Below are positions 1,426-46,170 of a stretch of 64,000 bases of DNA, piece by piece. The stretch comes from Syncephalis plumigaleata. Lineage: Eukaryota > Zoopagomycota > Zoopagomycetes > Zoopagales > Piptocephalidaceae. Below the pieces are notes generated by a model. The model searched no databases, was not told the DNA's origin, and worked only from the letters and a program-made list of their open reading frames with translations. Position 1 is the first letter of the stretch; the number at the start of each line of letters is the position of its first letter. Location: contig JAIXMF010000018.1 in the NCBI GenBank assembly GCA_025201365.1, positions 248,001-312,000 on the forward strand, in the 5' to 3' direction. A program made the position numbers and the translations under genes.

Positions 1426-3848
1426 ATGACCACACCTGCTGTATCTAAACGTTTCTTACGAGCACTGTCCCAGTTTGAACAGCTTCTACAATGTCCCATA
1501 TGGTTAGTGACGCAATATATGCATATATATATATATATATTCTGCTTTGTTCTAATATATATATGACTAGTCATCAATTACTGAACAAGACGCATACTGC
1601 CATGGAATGTGGACATAACTTTTGCTTGTAAGTGTTATTACACATGGAATACGTCAGTCATCTTATAACGATATATGCTATTGGTGGTATGATAGCGATT
1701 GCGCAGAAGAAATACTAGGTGTAAGCTGTACATGTCCAATTTGTCACTTGCCTGCTCGTGTGGGTAATTTACGCAAGAATCTATCGCATGATACGCTAGT
1801 GGCTTGCGCTATTAAGATTCGATCACTTACTAATACGGAGACATCGGTTCCTATACATGCTATATCATCAACTGCCGTTACAAGTAATACAACACCAAAA
1901 GAATCAATGCCAACTAGTCCAACAGTGATAGGGAAACGACCACATGCAGAAACAGAGAAGCATGGCAAGACTAGAACTCAACAAAAAGACAAACGAAGAC
2001 GCAGTACTGAATGTTCCAATAATAATAATAACGAGGATGATGACAATAACAAGGATATGAAATCAAAACAAACACCTAATGTAACAACAAGGAATAAGGT
2101 ACGTTTACTATCATGTTTACCTTTCTATCAAGTAATGTTCATTGATGTATTCATTGTAGTCATCGTTATCTAATTCAACTACTCACACATCTAACAAGAA
2201 AGCAAAGAATACAAATACCCTGAATACCATTACTCCCGTTAAACAACGTAATAATACTCGTAAATCATTAGAATCAATGGATAATGTAAGTGTCTGAATA
2301 TACATATTCAATTAACAAGCATGTCTATTAACTATTTATTAGACAAATGATAATGAGCAGATCATGTCTGATGATACTACATCTGATTCAACAAACAATG
2401 GAATGGTAAGTATTTATACAATATCCAATTAATATATATGCTAGTATTATTAATCCTATTTCATGATTAAAGACGACAGAAATAACACCGCGTGTTTCAC
2501 TAAGAGGACGTAAAGTCGATAATTACTATGCACCGGCAAACTATTCCGGATATGATGATACTTGTCTTAATCTATTTGGCACTAAACGAAAGGCACCCAC
2601 CGTGGTATGTATTAGTTATTAGTATGATGTATAATGATATAGACCATTAGCTAACATGGAATAGTCGACATCGAGTACACCGATTCGCTCACCTGTATTT
2701 GATGCTAGTTCCACTGATAAAGCAGAAATGAAATGGGCATGTTCACTTTGTACCTATGAGAACAAGTTGAAACGTCGACAATGTCAAATGTGCTTAACGC
2801 CACGAGGAAAGCAACCCGCCGTGAGCACGCCTAGTGTGACAAGAACAGAAACAAGTACAAAAACAACGTGGAGACAAAGGTAAAAGAAGAGGAAGTGAAA
2901 GAAGAAATAAAAGAGGAGAAAGATGGCGTGGCAGTTACAACAAAAGGAAAACGTTCAGCATCCATATCGAATTCGACTCACGACACTAATAGTCGTCATC
3001 GTAAAACATCGAAAATAGCCGACACTACACCATGTAGCAGCGATAAGGGAAAGCGTAGTTCACGTAGAATATCAATAGATCAGCCACAATCATCAGTAGT
3101 AAATGTAACACCTTGCATTCTAATCACTGGATTGAAACGAAATGAACGTGTAAGTCGATGATCATCAGTATTAATGAGTTATCATGCTTAATTATCTCGG
3201 TATATATATATATATCTATATAGGATATATTGAAATCAGCTGCCGTTAAGCGATTACCCTTTAAGATAGTGGAAGAGTTTACACAGGATGTCACGCATGT
3301 AGTAGTGCCATCGGACGTGAATGGTATTGCACCACGTACTGCCAAGTACATGGCAGGCCTACTAACTGGTCGATGGATTGTACAGATGAAATGTAATGCT
3401 AACACATATACACTTTATAATGCATTTCATATTAATCAATATCCATATTCATGATATCTAGGGATAACGGCAAGTGCTGAAGCGGGACACTGGCTCGATC
3501 CAGATGATTACGAGGTAACGGGTGACTCGGCAGTTGGCGAGTGTCATGCTCCACGAGAAAGTAGACTACGTGAGAATGCTCAGGTATTTGAATAGCCAGG
3601 TTATCCATTAAATACTAATGATATCTTAGTTACCACGCTTATTTGCTGGTAAACAGTTTGAATTGAATATCAAATCAGCATCTGAGATAGGTCAACTGAT
3701 TAGTATGTCAGGCGGTAAGGTGTGCTCGAGTACTAGTGGTACCAATGATCCATGCACGATAAAGTTGTCGAGGATCAGACGACAAGTGAGCACGACAATG
3801 AACAACGTCGTCAACGTCGTAGGTCAGGGCCTTATCGAAGTGGAGTAG
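1426..3848 (+). CDS. RING / RanBP2-finger / BRCT protein, BRCA1-like
   Basis: Eleven exons splice in frame to 584 residues: 1426-1502, 1571-1627, 1696-2098, 2199-2285, 2343-2405, 2473-2604, 2665-2820, 2880-3149, 3224-3392, 3462-3583, 3630-3848. Residues about 23-70 form a C3HC4 RING (QCPICHQLL, MECGHNFCFDCAEE, CTCPICH), the signature of a ubiquitin E3 ligase. A RanBP2-type zinc finger follows near residue 290 (WACSLCTYENKLKRRQCQMC). The C-terminal third carries a BRCT repeat (ITGLKRNER, TGRWIVQMKWITAS, AEAGHWLDPDDYE) and probably part of a second. The middle is low-complexity, lysine- and serine-rich. The order RING-BRCT is that of BRCA1/BARD1, which suggests DNA-damage signalling. The last exon end is uncertain: an open stretch continues to about 3930 in another frame. 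Confidence 0.75.
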
Positions 3849-4230
3849 CAAACACAACTGTAGATAATCCGTCGTTACATTAGAGGAACTTTTACGTAGC
3901 ATTTCTACACAAAATCCCTGTTGGCCTACCAAATAACTAATTTAGTCAGATTATTTCATAGTTTGTTTAATATATATATATATATACATATATTCATAAT
4001 AGACAGATGAGATTGTAGATACATGTATATGCACACACACACACTATATTATATCTAATGTAGACTAGTTAGATAGATGAGTATAAATGTTGATAATTGT
4101 ATTTCTATAAGGATCACATAAGTTTTTAGGATAAGAATGATCATTGATAGATGATAATGAAGTAAAATGTGGATCGGGTATGGAAATGATGGATCTTGTG
4201 GAAGAGCGCATATTTCCACTGTCGACACAT
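3849..4230. other. convergent 3' region
   Basis: AT-rich DNA between two convergent genes, with TA and CA dinucleotide runs at 3971-3986 and 4032-4044. No gene seen, apart from a possible last BRCT exon up to about 3930. Confidence 0.5.
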
Positions 4231-9322: not shown

Positions 9323-11871
<2,549 letters not shown>

Positions 11872-11952
11872 TTAGAGATTTAAGAAAATCATACACTTTT
11901 GTGATCCAAGTAGTAACATGTTTATGATCATTTTAATCGATGTAATAATGTG

Positions 11953-11973
11953 TTTTTCCATCCAATTTGCGCA
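11953..11973. repeat. left terminal inverted repeat of copy 1
   Basis: Pairs perfectly over 21 bp with 16024-16044. The outermost five bases (ATGTG, 11948-11952) differ from the CAGTG seen at the left ends of copies 2 and 3. Confidence 0.85.
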
Positions 11974-12204
11974 TTTATCCTTTAACATTTGCAGTTTATT
12001 AATAAACAGATTTACACAATTGTTAACACTATTATCACCGTAGAAATGACAATTGATATAGCATGATAATAATAACAATTCAGTATTTAGTAATGGATCA
12101 TTTATTGATAGCGATAACTATCATCATCAATTCTATAAGGTAGATGATACAAGTGTACTAGTATAGTTGGATATTGCCATGTCATGTACTTACAAGTAGT
12201 AATA

Positions 12205-13490
12205 AACTAGTATAATATATAAGTTATTGTAATAATGCATATGGTTAATTGCATATGAGTAGCAACGAGTGAACAAATAGAATACACGATAAACAATGTA
12301 ATAAACAAGCAGTAACTAGTAGAATGACTGACTTGTTATGAATGAGCGAGGAATGAACAAAGAAGGGTGCATGAACACGTATGCCAGTTTATTCGAAGAA
12401 GCAGTGTATGCTTGTATGTGGTGAATAGAGTATGTAGATGGCAGTAAACAAATGAAAATACAAATAAAAGCATGACGTAAGGGTGGCATACAAACAGATT
12501 ACGGAAAAGAGTGGTAAAGTAAACTGTGCATATTACAACGAGAACAGTGAACGCTTAAACATTGATAAATAAGCAGGACAGTGATAGAAAACAAAAGACT
12601 AGAACGAACAATAAACACTGCTTATTGGTATAGTAATAATAACGACAAGTGAGCATGTAGATAGGATAGAGCAAGAGGAAAACAAAGAGATAAATAAACG
12701 TCATAGAGATAGTATGGCAGAATAGCTGCTATTGGGAGTGTGTATGCTAAAGTGAAAGAGGAAGTAAGTGGAATGTGAATGACACGAAGAAGACGCGTAT
12801 TACTGAGAAAGTAATAGTAATAACTAGCATATAGGTAAGAGGAAGTAGACGTGTGTTGTTTACTGACAAGTGGAATGTAGTTGACACAAATAAGTGTGTT
12901 ACTGAATGACAAGGGAAAAGAGATTAGTACGAAAAAGACAGCATTGATAGAGAGAAAGAGAAAGAATGCTTTCATTGACTAATAAAGAAAATTAAGAGTT
13001 TATACATCAGTCGATAATGAGGAATGGAAATATACTATCATTGTTAACGAAGTAAAGGAGGAGGAAATAATGTAGATAATGAAGTAAAAGGAAAGGGGAA
13101 AGAGAAGCAACGATGAGATGGATACTTGGAAATGGATTGGTAAACCATTAACCAAGTGTTAACAAATAGATAAGGAGAAGTTGATAATGGAGGCATTAGT
13201 AGAATGCAAATGAATATATTAACATCCATTACAAGACTCTGTTCATTTATTAATAACGAATATATTTAATAAAGTGTTAACAAGTTCATTAGTACTTATT
13301 AATGCTTACCGATTGCTGTGTTCTAAGCGGCGTTATACCATTGCTACAATGACACTGGATGATACGAGTCTTACTGTGCTGCGCTGTAAATGATACTACT
13401 TACCATAATAGATTCACCCTTCCTGTATGTGTCTGCACGAGCGTTTCACCCCTGTACAATAGATCGATGCAATTAGTACTACCAACATGC
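12205..13490. other. non-coding left third of copy 1
   Basis: No supported gene on either strand. On the minus strand it is CT-rich, resembling host 5' regions elsewhere in the window (for example 31140-31990). Open frames at 12622-12975 and 13044-13229 (minus) encode only low-complexity hydrophobic sequence. It may be promoter DNA, or host DNA caught in the element. Confidence 0.45.
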
Positions 13491-13494
13491 CACG

Positions 13495-13502
13495 TATATA
13501 AA
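13495..13502 (+). promoter_or_regulatory. TATA box candidate for Fanzor
   Basis: TATATAAA about 104 bp upstream of the chosen ATG at 13606, the only good TATA match in the preceding few hundred bases. Confidence 0.4.
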
Positions 13503-13605
13503 GAAGCGTCTATACTACAATAAAAGAAAAGATTAATTAACCCTTCATATTGTAACTGTGCTCGTTTTAACATACTGCTATTGCATTGAATACTATCCAT
13601 TTTTC

Positions 13606-15901
13606 ATGATGCCACGGCCAGGCACTCATGGCTCGTCTACTTCTGCCGACAGTGGACGAGTTCTGGCTGTGAAGTCTTCTATCTCCGGCATTGGTTGGAA
13701 GAAGCATCACGATGTTTTGCGCGATTTTGTAGACATCGTGCACACCACGACCTTCCATGCTTATGCATTAGCGAAATATATATTCCTTAAAGAACATAAT
13801 AAGCGAAACTTTAAGTTCGAAAATTATATTCGTGAAGACTTCTTCAAACAAGTATGGCTTTCCTTAATCAAGCGTACACGCAAAAGCACACCCAAAGAAA
13901 AAACGGTTCGATATCGCAAATTCATCAAGAAGCATCTCAAAGACTACCTTAAACTTACTGGCTATCAACCGCCGGTGTTAGCCTATGCCGATCAGTCAGC
14001 TACTTACGAGGCAACGAAGATGTACGTTGCTTACACCAACAACGTCCGATTGCGCTTTGGCGACTTTCTTCGACGCGCTATTAACAAGTTTTTCGATGTC
14101 AAGGAGAAGCTAAAGGATATGAGGAAGGAGATGCTAAAAGATATGAAGAAGGAATTGCCCGAGGATGTAAAAGCTGATGAGCTTCGCGCGAGAACCAGAG
14201 CAATCACTGATCCAGCAAAAGAGTTCAAGCTAGCGATGGTACACCGAGGGGGGATTGAAGCGTTGGCTAAAAAGGATCGCGCATTTACCAGAGCATTCAG
14301 CAAATTCAAAAATGTTTTAAATGCTTACGATAAACGTTACGAATTTGGTAAAAACGGCCTTTATTACGACTGTAAGGAAAACCCAGTGAAGCACTTCAAA
14401 GCGTTCTTTGAGCTTGCGCGCGTGTTCCCTCGCATCCGTTTGAAGGCTTTCAACTGCTTCCCCCTGCGTCGTTCGTTTTCGCCATGCTACGTCCATATCG
14501 ACACCGTTATTCTTTGCCACAACATATTAGGACGCAGTTATGAGGATAAGAAGACTGAGCAGCAGAAGGAATTGGAGAAGAAGTGGACTGATGAAGAGAG
14601 GGAGGAAGCCCTTAAGAAGAAAAAGCAGGAGCATTGGGGACAAATTGTGGAGCTCAATCGAAGGGTATTCAGAGATCAAAAGGATGGCAAGCTCGAGTTT
14701 TTCTATTCAATAGAGACCGATGGCGTTGGTGTCACGGTCATCAAGAAGGGCATCGAGAAGGTCACCGAGGAAGGGGGAGCGAAATCAGCAAAGGATCCCT
14801 TCCCGTATATCAGTAAATTGGGTACTGATGATCACAAGGCAATCAACGGCAAATGCGTGGCCGTGGACCCGGGAAGAAGAAACTTACTGTTTTGTGTACA
14901 CGAAAACTCGACGGTGGAAAATAAGCGCAAATATCGGTACACGAAACTACATCAGGACAAGATGCGGAGGACGAAGGAATACCGCAGGATTCGCGATGAC
15001 TGCAAGAAGGGGAATCAGGCGGTGCAGGATGCCGAGGCAGCTCTTTCAAAAGCCCAGGGCAACACTGTATCTCTGGGGAATTATAAGAAATATCTGAAGT
15101 ATCGAGCACAACACACAGATGTTCTCACCAGCTTTTATAAAGATACTCTCACCCTTCCCAACACCGATCCCACCGCCCATTCTGCCCAACATCCTCTTTT
15201 CAGGAAGTTGAAGCTTTCGGCCTACATCAGCAAGCAGCAAAGTGATCAAAAGCTGATTGATGACTTAAGAGGGAAGTTCGATAAGGATGCAGCATTTGTG
15301 ATGGGCAACTGGTCCGCTCCTCACACCAAATACCACGAGCCCATACGTGGTATTGGCTTTAGAAGACTTTTGAAACGACATGGGTTTAAAGTCTTTCTAA
15401 TCGACGAGCATAAGACCAGCAAGTGCTGCCCAGCCTGCAACAATCCCACCCTCGAGAAATTCAAGCCAGTCGCGAATCCTCGGTCGAAGCAACATGAAGA
15501 CAGCCATAAAATTATCTGTCATGGTCTTTTAAGGTAAGTACAATTTATTACACTTTGCTATTTATCATAACATATTAATTAATTATTTTATTAGATGCAC
15601 ACATCAACCTTGTAAAGAGGCCATGAAAGATATAAAGGCTAAGAAGGAGCAAGAGGATATGATGGACGTGGATTATAAAGAGGACCCGGAATTTAAAAGA
15701 TACGATCATCGTCTGTGGAATCGGGATATGGCTGCATGTCTGAATTTTATTCAGATTATTTATAGTGTTCGTAAGGACAAAGGTGTTCCAACACAATTCC
15801 AACGAAGTGCCGTTTCTCCTCCTCAGCCTAGTACATCCGCAAAGCATTCACTAAATGAAGATCAAGATCAAGAGGGATCCAAACATCAAAAAACAAATTA
15901 A
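13606..15901 (+). CDS. Fanzor RNA-guided nuclease (TnpB homologue), apparently intact
   Basis: Exons 13606-15533 and 15595-15901 (61-bp GT-AG intron) join in frame to 744 residues. Family landmarks in order: PLRRSFSPCYVHIDT (about 285-300), SIETDGVGVTV with D372, RuvC-I AVDPGRRNLLF with D421, GNWSAPHTKYH (about 567), RuvC-II LIDEHKTSK with E601, a zinc finger (C607/C608 and C611, then C638, C644 and C649 in CHGLLRCTHQPC), and RuvC-III LWNRDMAACLN with D687. The glutamate sitting just before TSK-C-C, instead of on the usual RuvC-II strand, is characteristic of Fanzor. The N-terminal 300 residues are basic and should form the RNA-binding wedge/recognition part. By family knowledge the protein uses a guide RNA from its own 3' region to cut DNA; here it may help element persistence. 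The tail (QDQEGSKHQKT) is polar and basic. ATG 13606 or 13609 are the first ATGs in frame. The intron splits the zinc finger. Confidence 0.93.
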
Positions 15902-16049
15902 CCAGGTTGTATCGTCAACCGCCACACTGTCGCCTAAACGACAATGGCACCCCAAAATACGGAGTAGTAATACTTGTAAGTGTTAACATCATCATTATTT
16001 ATTCGTAAAGACAGAAGGCTAACTGCGCAAATTGGATGGAAAAAGCCTG
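15902..16049 (+). ncRNA. candidate guide (omega/f) RNA scaffold and right end of copy 1
   Basis: Immediately after the Fanzor stop codon two adjacent hairpins can be read. GGTTG/CAACC (15905-15909 with 15916-15920) has loop TATCGT. A longer one follows: GCCA-cac-TGTCG / CGACA-a-TGGC (15921-15948). The rest runs to the inverted repeat. In characterised TnpB and Fanzor loci the guide RNA is transcribed from the 3' end of the gene through the right end of the element, with the guide reading into flanking DNA. Position and structure fit; transcription is not shown. The RNA probably begins inside the coding sequence, so the 5' limit is unknown. Confidence 0.5.
16024..16044. repeat. right terminal inverted repeat of copy 1
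   Basis: Exact complement of 11953-11973. The same block recurs near 17974-17995 in copy 2. The element then ends GCCTG followed by TA. Confidence 0.85.
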
Positions 16050-16171
16050 TAATGTGCGATGATTGACAATAAACACGTATGATGGTGCTCTTCCTCGCCT
16101 ACTTCCTCTTTCTTGTTCCGCTCTTTTCTAGTTTACTGAATCATTATTTATTTCTGTTTCAAAATACTGAT

Positions 16172-17338
16172 ATGCTACGTATGCCGTCGTTAATAACACG
16201 TCTAGCTATTCTCGCTGTAACTGTATTGTTGCAAGGCGGTGATGCAGCTGAAGATTTCACAGTTGAACCCGGTAAGCGGCAGTAGTTATTGCTGAATATC
16301 TCAAGGCAAGTAAGCTCATCTTGACGAGTAATAGGCTTCGAAGCGGTTACTTGCGGTAGTACTATTCGACTGGTTCATCAAGCGACGCAATATCAACTGC
16401 ATTCCTTGGAGGCGAAATACGGTACAGGAATACACTAGTTTACACTGGCGAATAGAGTCTAATACTAGTGATACACGATGATGATGCTCATAATGATAAT
16501 ATACAGGACAAGGTCAAGGCAGTGGACAGCAAATTGTTACGGCATTAAAGACAGACTCTGATCAGGATTGTTTCTGGCTAGTGAAAGGATCCATTGGTAC
16601 CAATTGTTTACGAGGGTAAGTACTGTACTCGACTCCTTAGAAAAGACCATGTACCTATGGCAGTATCATCCATGACTTACGCATCTTGGGTGATTCCCCT
16701 CTTCTAGAACACCCGTACAATGTGGAGATACCATTCGTCTTATGCATTATATGACAGGCAAACACTTGCATAGTCATACGTTTAGTTCACCCCTCTCGCA
16801 ACAACAGGAGGTCAGTGGATTTGCCGATGAAGATGATGGTAAGTGATAGATGATGATGGTGGATCTCGTTAAATACTTTTATATTCATTATTGGCAATGA
16901 CTGTACTCTTTGTGTTTATCTAGGTGATCACTGGATTGTTGAATGTCCAACTGATCTAACAGCAGCTAATGGTAAATCAGCATGGGTTGTTGATGGTACA
17001 CCTGTATGGACACGAGAGATACCCGTGTATCTACGTCATGCCAATACTGACACCTATCTATCTGCATCATCTGACTACATCTACGGATCACCTATTCGTG
17101 GTCAGATGGAGGTGTCGGCCGCTTCTTATTCGAGTGATAACACGCTTTGGCAAGCAGCTGTAAGTATAGTGTAGATTTACTTGAGTAATTAACTAGCTAA
17201 ACAATATCATTGTTATAGAATGGCGTGTATTTCGGTATTCCTAAGAATAGCAGTAACAGTAACAGTAATGATACAGCATCGAATAACGAGTCTAGCAATA
17301 ATGGTGAACAGATCAAAGATGATCATGATGAATTATAA
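16172..17338 (+). CDS. SDF2: SDF2-like ER protein with MIR repeats and HDEL
   Basis: Exons 16172-16271, 16335-16421, 16507-16615, 16708-16838, 16924-17159 and 17219-17338 splice in frame to 260 residues. An N-terminal signal peptide (LITRLAILAVTVLLQGGDA) is followed by MIR repeats (VTCGSTIRLVHQATQYQLHS, GSGQQIV, PVQCGDTIRLMHYMTGKHLHS, IPVYLRHANTDTYLS). The protein ends HDEL, the ER retrieval signal. SDF2 proteins work in the ER lumen with chaperones and with protein O-mannosyltransferases, whose MIR domains they share. The start ATG at 16172 is only 122 bp after transposon copy 1, and the stop is 6 bp before copy 2, so both transcript ends probably use transposon-proximal sequence. Confidence 0.92.
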
Positions 17339-17344
17339 TAACTA

Positions 17345-18000
17345 CAGTGTTTTTCCATCCATTTTGCGCATTTATCCTTTAGCTTTTGCGGGTTATTAAT
17401 AAATAATCTATTCAATTGTTAATGCCATTATTACAATAGAAATGCCAATTGATATAGCATGATAATAATAACAATTCAATATGTAATTAATACTTCATTG
17501 ATAGCGATAATGATCATCATCAATTCTATAAGGTAGACGATACAAGTATACTAGTATAGTTGGATATTGCCATGTCATGTACTTACAAGTAGCTATTGAT
17601 TATCGTGTATGGAATCGTGATATGGCTGCATGTCTGAACTTCATTCAGATTATTCACAGTGTTCGTAAGGACAAGGAGGTCGAGATGGATAAAGACAACA
17701 AGCCAATTAAAAAATTCGAGCATCGTTTGTGGAATCGGGATATGGCTGCATGTCTGAATTTTATTCAGATTATTCTCAGTGCTCGTAATGGAAGTCGTAT
17801 TCCAACACAATTTCAACGAGGTGCCGTTCCTTCTAAGCGTTCAAGACAAGGAGGACAAGGACAACGGGGGTCCAAACAACAAAAATCAAATTAACCGTGG
17901 AGTTATCGCTGCCACACCACAAAATACGTAAGTGTTATTATAACTATTATTTATTCGTAAAACAGAAGGCTAACTGCGCAAATTGGATGGAAAAAGTCTG
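17345..18000 (+). mobile_element. Fanzor transposon, copy 2 (656-bp deletion derivative)
   Basis: Bounded by TA (17343-44) CAGTGTTTTTCC on the left and GGAAAAAGTCTG TA (18001-02) on the right. The left arm (to 17593) matches 11948-12204 of copy 1 closely, and the right arm matches 15960-16049. Between them only the very end of the Fanzor gene remains, so roughly 3.4 kb has been removed internally. It has the same orientation as copy 1. It would need both transposase and, if relevant, Fanzor protein from elsewhere. Confidence 0.85.
17594..17894 (+). pseudogene. Fanzor 3'-end remnant with duplicated RuvC-III block
   Basis: An open frame encodes YRVWNRDMAACLNFIQII and, about 40 residues later, HRLWNRDMAACLNFIQII, then the copy-1-like tail (RIPTQFQRGAVP) and a stop at 17894. 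The RuvC-III motif with its catalytic aspartate is thus present twice in tandem, while RuvC-I, RuvC-II and the zinc finger are absent. No nuclease activity is expected from this fragment. A hairpin GTGG/CCAC (17897-17900 with 17912-17915, loop containing TTATCG) follows the stop. Confidence 0.8.
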
Positions 18001-18151
18001 TATCTATTGCTGTCTTGTTATATGAATTCATCCTAGAAATAAACAATATTTTGCAATATACATGTATATGTATTCATGTATATATTAGTTACACATATTT
18101 TATTGCTAAAATTACGATGATAAGAAATGTAAACTGGAATGTTCTAATTGC

Positions 18152-19632
18152 TTATGCAGTTGGCGATGATGAAGTAATCGGTCCTGCACTAGTGGCTGCT
18201 TGTGAATTAGATGTCGATGATGATGACACCGTAAGTAATGGTGGCGAGGATGATCGTGACTTGACCGACGATGGTAGCGTGTCGATGCCCACATTACTCT
18301 TACGTCGACGATGACCGGCTTGCCATGCAGTCGATTCCGTTTGTCTAAATGCAACAATGGCACGATCCACTTCCTCCATCATTTCCAGGGCCATTTGATA
18401 GATTTCACTACCGACTGGATTGTACATGAGTGCATTCTGGAAGATTAATAACATGTCATGATGAAATTCATCTGTTGTATTAATTTTCTAATCAATCAAT
18501 CAATCAATCAATAGTAATCGAGTTAGAAATACATGTTAATTCACTATTACTGCTATTCTATAGAGGAATCTATTTGATGTTTACTTACACTATCACGTAC
18601 TCGCTTGCGTACAGTGTTCAAATCCATAGGACGACGTACGATATCATAGTAGCCTGGTGCCTGTTGACGACGAATAGGCTGAGCAAATATCGAGGCATAC
18701 CGATGATTGGCTAGATCGCGCCATATCATTAGTACGAGTTTGCGCCATGTCTTTAGTCGTTCGACCTCCTCCTCGGCTGTCATCTCAGGTCGAGTGATCG
18801 GTGAGGATGTCTTGCTCCAGTGACCGGGTTCACGCTCGGATTCCATACCTGTCTCACCTTCTGAGTATCTCATTAGTTATAATGTCGTTCATTCGTATTA
18901 TCTTCCTGTTGATCAAGCACTTACCTGCTAGTGCGGTATGTGTGTCCAATTCAGCGGTACTAACTATTGTGATGGCTAACGTGTTAGTCATGTATATATA
19001 TATATTTATATTTATATGCAAGTGCACATCAACTATATCGTCTGGTTACCTTCTTCACGTTCTAATTCATTCATTGTTGATTCAGTGGCCGTTTCACGCT
19101 TAACACGCTGCGTGTCATCCGACAAATCCATCGGTGTGGGTCGTTTTCTCGTAGTCTTTGTGTCGGTATCCGTTGTATCCATATTGATTGCATTATCCAC
19201 TGTCTGTGTGTTTATATCTGTCATACTCGTGTCATGTACAATGGATGATTTATCCTTATTTGCATCTGGATTGCTTTCCGTGCTACGTGCACTATGCGAT
19301 CTAGTGACCATAGGTGCTGGCAGTGCAGCATCTGTAATCTCTGTGTCCGATTCCATATTACTTGACTCCTTCTCCTGATCAACATCCATTTCTGTGGCAG
19401 AGTCACGTCTTATTGCATCTACTAGTTGTGCATCATCATGATCACTTGATTGCACGGTTGTTGCTGGTATATCAGTTAATTGATCATCACTTTGTTTAGA
19501 CTCCATATGTTCTTGACTGGATGATTCCGCTTTCGTAATTGGCAATTTAGCAAGTGCATCCTTATTCTCAACCTTCTTGAGTTGTTCCTTATGTTTTGAC
19601 TCTTCTTGTGGTACCTCTGCTACTGTCTGTTC

Positions 19633-26104: not shown

Positions 26105-26460
26105 AAGTTGTTTCTTGTTGTCCTTCATTTCTTGAATGTTTAGAAGTAATGGCACTTTGATGTAGTTGTGTTGGAACACCATTTCCATTGCAAAGACTGA
26201 GAATAATCTGAATAGAACTCAGACATGCTGCCATATCACGATTCCATACACGATACTCGAATCCTTTACCTTCATGTCATCTTTACAATTCTGATGTGTG
26301 CATCTAATAGAATAATGAATTAGTATATTGCTATAGATTATACTCATCTTAAGAAGGCATGACAAGTGACAGTAGGATATCTCGTCAATTAGAAAGACTT
26401 GAACACCATGTTCATTGTTATCCTCACTGCGTATGATTTATTTTGTCTTTTTGTTGAATA
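26105..26460 (-). pseudogene. Fanzor 3' remnant in copy 3
   Basis: The minus strand encodes VFKSF/VFLIDE-like RuvC-II sequence, then, after a deletion of the first zinc-finger half, an intron-like segment ending CTATTAG. It continues with CTHQNC-like second-half sequence and WNRDMAACL (codons near 26228-26248). The tail SLCNGNGVPTQLHQSAIT parallels the intact protein's tail. A hairpin GTGAT/ATCAC (26082-26100) follows the stop position. RuvC-I is missing, so it is not a working nuclease. Confidence 0.75.
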
Positions 26461-28060: not shown

Positions 28061-28303
28061 CTCGTGACAACGATGTACAAACAATACAAGACTATGGTGA
28101 ATATAACAACATCAATAAATCATTACAATTCATTATCATTTCTTATAACATAATGGTGTTAACAATTGTGCAAGATTATTTATTAATAAACTGCAAAAGT
28201 TAATGGCTAACAGGCTAATCGGTTGAAAAACACTGTATTTATTTAGTTTTTTTATTTTTTTTTCCTTACCTTCATTCTTTTCATATTAAAGTTAATTGGA
28301 ATC

Positions 28304-45780: not shown

Positions 45781-46170
45781 TACACAAATAAATCATACGC
45801 AAGTGTGGATAATAATGAAGCATGGTATTCAAGTCATTCTAATTGACGAAATATCCTACTGTTACTTGTCATGCCTTCTTAATATGAGTACAATCTATAA
45901 CAATATACTAATTCATTATTCTATAGATGCACACATCAGAATTGTAAAGATGACATGAAAGGTAAAGGATTCGAGTATCGTGTATGAATCGGATATGGCA
46001 GCATGTCTGAATGTTATTCAGATTATTCTCAGTCTTTGCAATGGAAATGGTGTTCCAACACAACTACATCAAAGTGCCTACCAATCATTCAAGAAATGAA
46101 GGACACAAGAAACAACTTAACTGTGATGTATCCTCAATCACATCTAAATACGTAAGGTTATTATCATTAG
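45781..46170 (+). mobile_element. Fanzor transposon, copy 4 (truncated relic)
   Basis: Closely matches the inner part of copy 3, sharing AAATAAATCATACGC at the start and the same internal deletion of the zinc-finger front half. A RuvC-II piece (HGIQVILIDE), the intron-like segment ending CTATAG, a CTHQNC-like half finger, and an eroded RuvC-III block around 45990-46020 remain. A hairpin GTGAT/ATCAC (46123-46141) follows the tail. No inverted repeat is visible at either end, so both termini seem lost. Not functional as a protein. Confidence 0.72.

Follow-up and report, generated by a model that had tools for sequence, protein, structure and literature searches.

The closest structurally solved relative of the nuclease described here is PpFz1, the Fanzor1 of the early-diverging fungus Parasitella parasitica (PDB 9cf0-9cf3), with which it shares the motifs of the catalytic triad. 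According to the portions of PMC11423790 drawn on here, the measured TAM (transposon/target-adjacent motif) of PpFz1 is ATN, which fits the ATA flank of the Syncephalis element, and its 75-nt omegaRNA carries the guide from about position 50, close to the 56-70 nt of the Syncephalis right end. The ~100-residue cyclophilin-binding FRI insertion in the RuvC domain of PpFz1 is apparently missing from the new protein: where query residues 514-532 align with 984-1096 of the PpFz1 chain, 17 query residues stand against 111. SpuFz1 of Spizellomyces punctatus (8gkh; measured TAM CATA, PMC10432273) and its carrier Spu-1 resemble the Syncephalis system in their genomic setting. As far as the sections of PMC10432273 and PMC3627910 used here go, both systems have inverted repeats flanked by TA duplications, numerous intact copies and ghosts in which the right end survives; in both a CA preceding the left end is conserved, and neither element has a transposase of its own. 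The same part of PMC10432273 counts 42 Fz and 134 ghost loci in S. punctatus, as against the ~480 Syncephalis elements estimated from counts of ends; the Syncephalis system differs further in its single intron, in a candidate mobiliser with related ends and in the existence of an empty form of the site. PUl-4 and PGv-1 (PMC3627910, in part) are likewise Fanzor-only elements with Mariner-type ends and TA duplication, in other hosts; neither a guide RNA nor a TAM appears in the sections of that 2013 paper considered here. Bacterial TnpB of IS200/IS605 and IS607 likewise joins a RuvC nuclease to a right-end guide RNA (PMC10711439, in the part cited), the arrangement that is predicted for the Syncephalis element. 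Saito et al. (2023, PMC10432273) describe the biological role of Fanzor as unknown and name ghost loci and help in trans as possibilities.

The locus compared with these systems lies in a 64,000-nucleotide stretch of Syncephalis plumigaleata DNA (contig JAIXMF010000018.1), hereafter the window. Taken jointly, its features are read here, at a probability of roughly 0.7, as those of an intact Fanzor1 in a non-autonomous Tc1/mariner-type element that would be moved by a transposase acting in trans, would make a guide RNA from its right end, and would be retained or spread through the cutting of empty sites.

The Fanzor1 gene

The gene and its landmarks are as follows.

13606..15533, plus strand: Fanzor1 exon 1 (frame, sister copies, alignment to solved Fanzor1 chains)
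14866..14868, plus strand: codon of D421, RuvC-I (aligned to DPGRR of PpFz1)
15406..15408, plus strand: codon of E601, RuvC-II (aligned to LIDEFRTS of PpFz1)
15534..15594, plus strand: intron of 61 nt, GTAAGT...TTAG, GT-AG (sequence; junction recurring in sister copies)
15595..15901, plus strand: Fanzor1 exon 2, with RuvC-III and stop (sequence; sister copies)
15725..15727, plus strand: codon of D687, RuvC-III (aligned to WNRD of PpFz1 and SpuFz1)

Judged by a sequence relation that is significant over most of its length, the encoded protein is a Fanzor1. In phmmer searches of solved chains PpFz1 (9cf0) is the best match, at E 1.1e-111, followed by SpuFz1 (8gkh) at E 1.6e-34, and the three catalytic motifs align. 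No Pfam or NCBIfam profile scores above its cut-off for this protein; the only Pfam match, and with it the only likeness to bacterial TnpB that Pfam records, is a weak one to the Cas12f1-like TNB domain at E 0.013, under the TNB cut-off. Since these profiles are silent, the relation was established through the solved chains and through homologs. Twenty-six of the latter came from a search of ~5.8 billion proteins that scored the 7998 candidates with the most words in common. Hypothetical proteins of S. plumigaleata itself take the first nine ranks, and homologs in Rhizopus, Mucor, Bifiguratus and Coemansia follow. In a tree of the 26, the eleven Syncephalis rows fall on one side (support 76/65) with Mucoromycota and Coemansia apart, and the joins between groups are weak; given these weak joins, no claim is made that the gene passed between the mycoparasite and its Mucorales hosts. 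Among the literature matches listed, in a search with most subscription journals outside it, no paper deals with a Fanzor in Syncephalis, Zoopagomycota or Coemansia; Fanzor combined with ghost and inverted repeat matched only PMC10432273, and no paper on the Syncephalis system stood among the matches listed.

Read directly from the sequence, the two exons join into an unbroken frame of 744 aa ending in TAA. The open stretch of exon 1 runs to 642 codons; in 300 base-shuffles such stretches averaged 88 codons and never exceeded 222. The identical splice junction is found in all 23 open-frame models of the genome (the window copy and 22 others), the intron measuring 60 or 61 nt, and because it recurs in this way the intron model is independently supported and is not a chance join. 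The triad stands in the contexts AVDPGRR (D421), LIDEHKTS (E601) and LWNRDMAA (D687); between RuvC-II and RuvC-III lies a C4 finger formed by CPAC (C608, C611) and CTHQPC, and an RD motif is also present. Across the 23 open-frame copies D421 is kept in 23, E601 in 22 and D687 in 23, and C607, C608 and C611 are invariant. The one otherwise open copy that lacks the RuvC-II motif strings (C1:1613740-1618602, L023) is apparently the single E to K change. An earlier note on this DNA had described a spliced Fanzor of 744 residues with an intact frame, the landmarks D421, E601 and D687, and a complete cysteine-rich finger. Its exons, intron and stop are as found here; the three landmarks fall in the three RuvC motifs by alignment to PpFz1; the finger is there, its cysteines shared by the sister copies; and the identification as a Fanzor is borne out by the solved chains, the fungal homologs and the sister copies with conserved triad.

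The element, its gene-less relatives and a candidate mobiliser

The gene lies within a larger mobile element, next to a shorter relative.

11945..11947, plus strand: ATA, that is, base A and the left TA of the target-site duplication (11946-11947); predicted TAM (flank statistics, empty site)
11948..16049, plus strand: whole Fanzor element, 4102 bp, between TA duplications (repeats, sister copies; absent from contig C136)
11948..11994, plus strand: left terminal inverted repeat; outermost bases ATGTG, those of the family CAGTG
15980..16049, plus strand: conserved right end, predicted omegaRNA scaffold, which the shortest ghosts keep from about 15994 (sequence conservation)
16050..16051, plus strand: right TA of the target-site duplication, junction CTG-TA (sequence, sister ends, empty site)
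16052..16067, plus strand: predicted guide segment, where the omegaRNA would run on into the host flank (by analogy with SpuFz1, from the part of PMC10432273 cited)
17345..18000, plus strand: ghost element lacking a complete gene, with both Fanzor-element ends and the Fanzor C-terminal tail in duplicate (sequence)

Within 11948-16049 there is no second frame of transposase size, the largest other stop-to-stop frame listed being of 127 aa; the element is non-autonomous. In the family, duplicates included, TA adjoins left ends in 54 of 56 cases and right ends in 74 of 76. The element-end sequence has 962 matches in the genome at up to 2 mismatches (its reversed control has 0), which suggests ~480 related elements on the assumption of two ends each. 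Forty stretches, taken from the first 100 listed end places (27 of them chosen for closely spaced ends, so that short elements are over-represented), were fetched. None contains a full Fanzor gene; all 40 keep the right-end sequence, as expected of stretches that were found by these very ends, and 38 have both ends, L095 and L105 showing the right end only within the stretch. Three size classes cover most, not all, of these gene-less stretches: ~215 bp (element positions 5 to about 90 or 179, joined to 4049-4106), ~570 bp (5-254 and about 3759-4106) and ~1.1 kb (5 to about 91, other sequence, then 3572-4106).

The ghost at 17345-18000 in the window is itself flanked by TA, at 17343-17344 and 18001-18002. 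Its doubled RuvC-III tail occupies 17598-17794, with a unit of 120 nt, and the C136 alignment is one unit shorter there. More degenerate pieces resembling it are found at 26118-26258, 28137-28243 and 45973-46105. Among copies and ghosts, the stretch between the stop codon and the conserved right end comes, by eye, in several recurring types, as if shuffled.

Of right-end sequence the shortest gene-less class retains just the last 58 nt, TA included, a length near that of the short PpFz1 scaffold. For the predicted scaffold there is no Rfam match and, in a comparison of the right ends of sister copies, no covariation, the core being invariant; several copies, by eye, disrupt a candidate AGGCU/AGCCU stem, and RNA consensus folding of the right ends gives weak structure. 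Left ends are conserved across the family too, and because both ends are, conservation of the right end is by itself no proof of an RNA.

A candidate for the missing transposase exists in the same genome. Five Tc1/mariner transposon copies of ~4.5 kb carry an open DDE_3/HTH transposase of 383 aa, one at C90:380461-384987 (L060, L127, L129) and one on each of four other contigs; the transposon measures 4527 bp from flank base to flank base and 4521 bp inside its TA duplications. Over 2.2 kb, identity among the four copies that were compared is 99.95% or higher, so the transposon has been active recently. The two ends of the C90 copy are identical over the 120 nt compared, and the transposon end agrees with the Fanzor family at 36 of 47 positions of the left end and 34 of 47 of the right; over the inner 42 positions, 31 match the Fanzor left end, a number that none of 20000 shuffles approached more closely than 25. 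I read these likenesses of sequence as probable common Tc1/mariner ancestry, in which the left end of the Fanzor element would have kept the transposon repeat and the right end would have diverged into an RNA-coding end. The 383-aa transposase is thus a candidate mobiliser, its ends similar and not identical to those of the Fanzor element.

Other transposases were considered for this part and rejected. The transposon with a 380-aa DDE_3 protein by the copy at 570 kb on C1 is nested in that Fanzor copy and has different, 213-bp ends; these are perfect inverted repeats, and the transposon interrupts the copy at C1:572020-574700 (L063). At C318:677900-679900 (L064) the 380-aa DDE_3 transposon has Fanzor-element 5' sequence on both sides, in two pieces that adjoin each other. 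Loci with DDE_3 proteins of 375 and 347 aa (L065, L109) have no Fanzor-type end in the stretch fetched; L109 adjoins a 94-nt piece resembling the 5' region of the Fanzor element. Searches for DDE_1 and Transposase_1 gave no match anywhere, nor did their controls, so that the absence of these families is unproven.

The flank bias and the empty site

The two sides of the element differ in the host base that precedes the TA. Among exact tips, A fills this place at 208 of 326 on the left and at 64 of 264 on the right (Fisher p 3e-22, with haplotig duplicates included; tips called left or right by their letters alone, with a small mix possible), and at 29 of 43 left and 12 of 59 right ends (p 2e-6) in a de-duplicated sample that left out ends without TA and those with near-identical flanks; the window-wide background is 33% A. 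Mis-typed tips do exist: L070 is a left end with a right-type tip, and L092 and L102 are right ends with left-type tips. The rarest left base is G, at about 6.5% against a background of 22.5%, from 100 of the 118 listed non-A rows; right tips were read inward, and the C, G and T shares there are approximate. With G before the left TA, the left site would be the same as the right junction of the element itself, CTG-TA. An "ATA-not-GTA" rule of cutting would spare the occupied site, where the right junction reads GTA (tip CTG plus TA), and would expose the empty one.

The notion that such a bias marks a nuclease is open to an objection. Perfect ends of Fanzor-less Tc1/mariner copies with a DDE_3 match nearby have A before TA at 7 of 12 transposase-3' ends and at 0 of 9 other ends (p 0.007; left out are a perfect end on C299, with base A and no DDE_3 match, and ends with repeat mismatches). 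Given this same sided bias in copies that have no Fanzor, the bias may not be the nuclease's. It is quite possible, although we lean the other way, that ATA at left ends is transposase insertion chemistry and no TAM. Against this, the ends of the C90 copy, the one such copy read at both ends, are identical over 120 nt and so should be interchangeable; the sample of 7/12 and 0/9 is small and was examined post hoc; and ATA fits the TAM measured for the closest solved Fanzor (PMC11423790, in the part cited).

The mechanism preferred here, retention or spread through cutting of empty sites, would run as follows. A Tc1/mariner transposase supplied in trans would move the Fanzor element. A transcript leaving the right end would become the guide RNA, its scaffold the last 56-70 nt of the element and its guide the host DNA flanking the right end. 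Fanzor would then cut the matching element-free site adjoining ATA, and repair of the cut would copy the element in, so that it is retained or spread, while the occupied site, with its right junction GTA, would escape. Ghosts that keep the right end could provide more guides.

The genome also holds an element-free form of the window site. When the joined window flanks are compared with the genome, C136:3466-3666 matches them at 96% without interruption. Colinearity of C136 with the window covers 11067-11947 (96.0%) and 16048-17186 (96.8%), and over a longer course 11067-11947, 16048-17666 and 17722-18901 at 95-97%. Read over 3.6 kb, about 0.9 kb to the left and 2.7 kb to the right of the site, it is without the 4.1-kb element, with no duplicated TA or extra bases at the junction, and it shares the ghost at 17345-18000. 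Should C136 be the other allele, this ghost would predate the insertion. The empty site reads ATA and then departs from the right flank of the window copy, the predicted guide, at positions 1, 2 and 11; three or more changes in 15, at 3.4% background divergence, have a chance of ~0.013 (tested after the changes had been seen). Because of these three differences, today's guide would not be a perfect match to C136. The left tip ATGTG (11948-11952) is the same five letters as the host flank at 16052-16056, where the empty site has GCGTG; the tip is possibly a trace of repair or conversion, and a copy with an altered left tip may no longer be mobile.

Two results thus oppose simple retention: a few Fanzor-less transposons share the flank bias, and the empty site mismatches the predicted guide at three of its first 11 positions. 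A stronger version, outright RNA-guided homing, would have the occupied allele, protected by its GTA, guide the enzyme against the element-free allele, and hundreds of ghosts supply guides from their own flanks to an enzyme acting in trans; C136, changed at guide positions 1, 2 and 11, would then be an escape allele. We regard this version as doubtful.

The value of C136 to the preferred reading depends on its being an allele. As a diverged segmental duplicate it would say nothing of a heterozygous insertion, and a divergence of 3-4% is sizeable; this is nonetheless unlikely, since the colinearity over 3.6 kb extends to both sides of the element and takes in the ghost, and since other small contigs repeat large-contig insertions with the same or nearly the same flanks (C325/C223, C61/C223). 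Small contigs that repeat large-contig loci with small differences (C325 with C223, C61 with C223, C136 with C90) suggest haplotigs of a heterozygous or heterokaryotic strain.

Integrity of the copies and significance

A DNA and protein search, its matches grouped, places Fanzor at no fewer than 40 positions in the 32.6-Mb genome, a lower bound. An open spliced model is found in 23 of the 29 copies read whole and is lacking in 6; the 29 are biased to the best-scoring, which biases the intact share upward, the other 11 of 40 having been read in part or cut by contig ends, and at least one pair among the 23 (C223, C325) shares its insertion site. The earlier note had held intact copies to be far rarer than relics. 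Among full-length copies this is not so, 23 of 29 being open even if chosen toward the best-scoring, while intact copies may be the rarer if all gene-less elements are counted as relics. The rarity that the note implied fares no better, for there are at least 40 genomic places, close copies already stand in public databases as hypothetical proteins, and multicopy intact Fanzor1 in elements with terminal inverted repeats and TA duplication was published in 2013 and 2023 (PMC3627910 and PMC10432273, in the sections used).

The median NG86 dN/dS among the 23 open copies is 0.41 (252 of 253 pairs, which are not independent; the pair omitted has a dS of 0.045, below 0.05), and the window copy gives 0.35-0.53 against the 22 others. 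These numbers bear on whether the nuclease does anything for the element. It could be an intact but idle passenger, its amplified copies intact since they are young and its activity without effect on spread: some copies are near-identical (dS 0.045-0.1), the 962 ends far exceed the at least 40 gene places, and the window copy has an altered left tip. Between copies at dS 0.3-0.7, however, dN/dS is still near 0.4 with frames open, and 22 of the 23 open copies keep the whole triad, which makes an idle passenger distinctly improbable. That the gene is host-domesticated, with a cellular role, is scarcely credible despite its open frame and intron, as it lies between clear transposon ends flanked by a TA duplication, occurs in many copies and is missing from the empty form of the locus.

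Enzymes of this type have been described before. What stands out is an unusually complete natural setting, with an insertion and the uninterrupted form of its site in one genome, and the value of the find lies more in that setting than in the gene. Many open-frame enzymes, right ends that possibly encode guides, a candidate transposase and a predicted TAM make the role of Fanzor testable here, and the occupied and empty forms of one locus add to that test.
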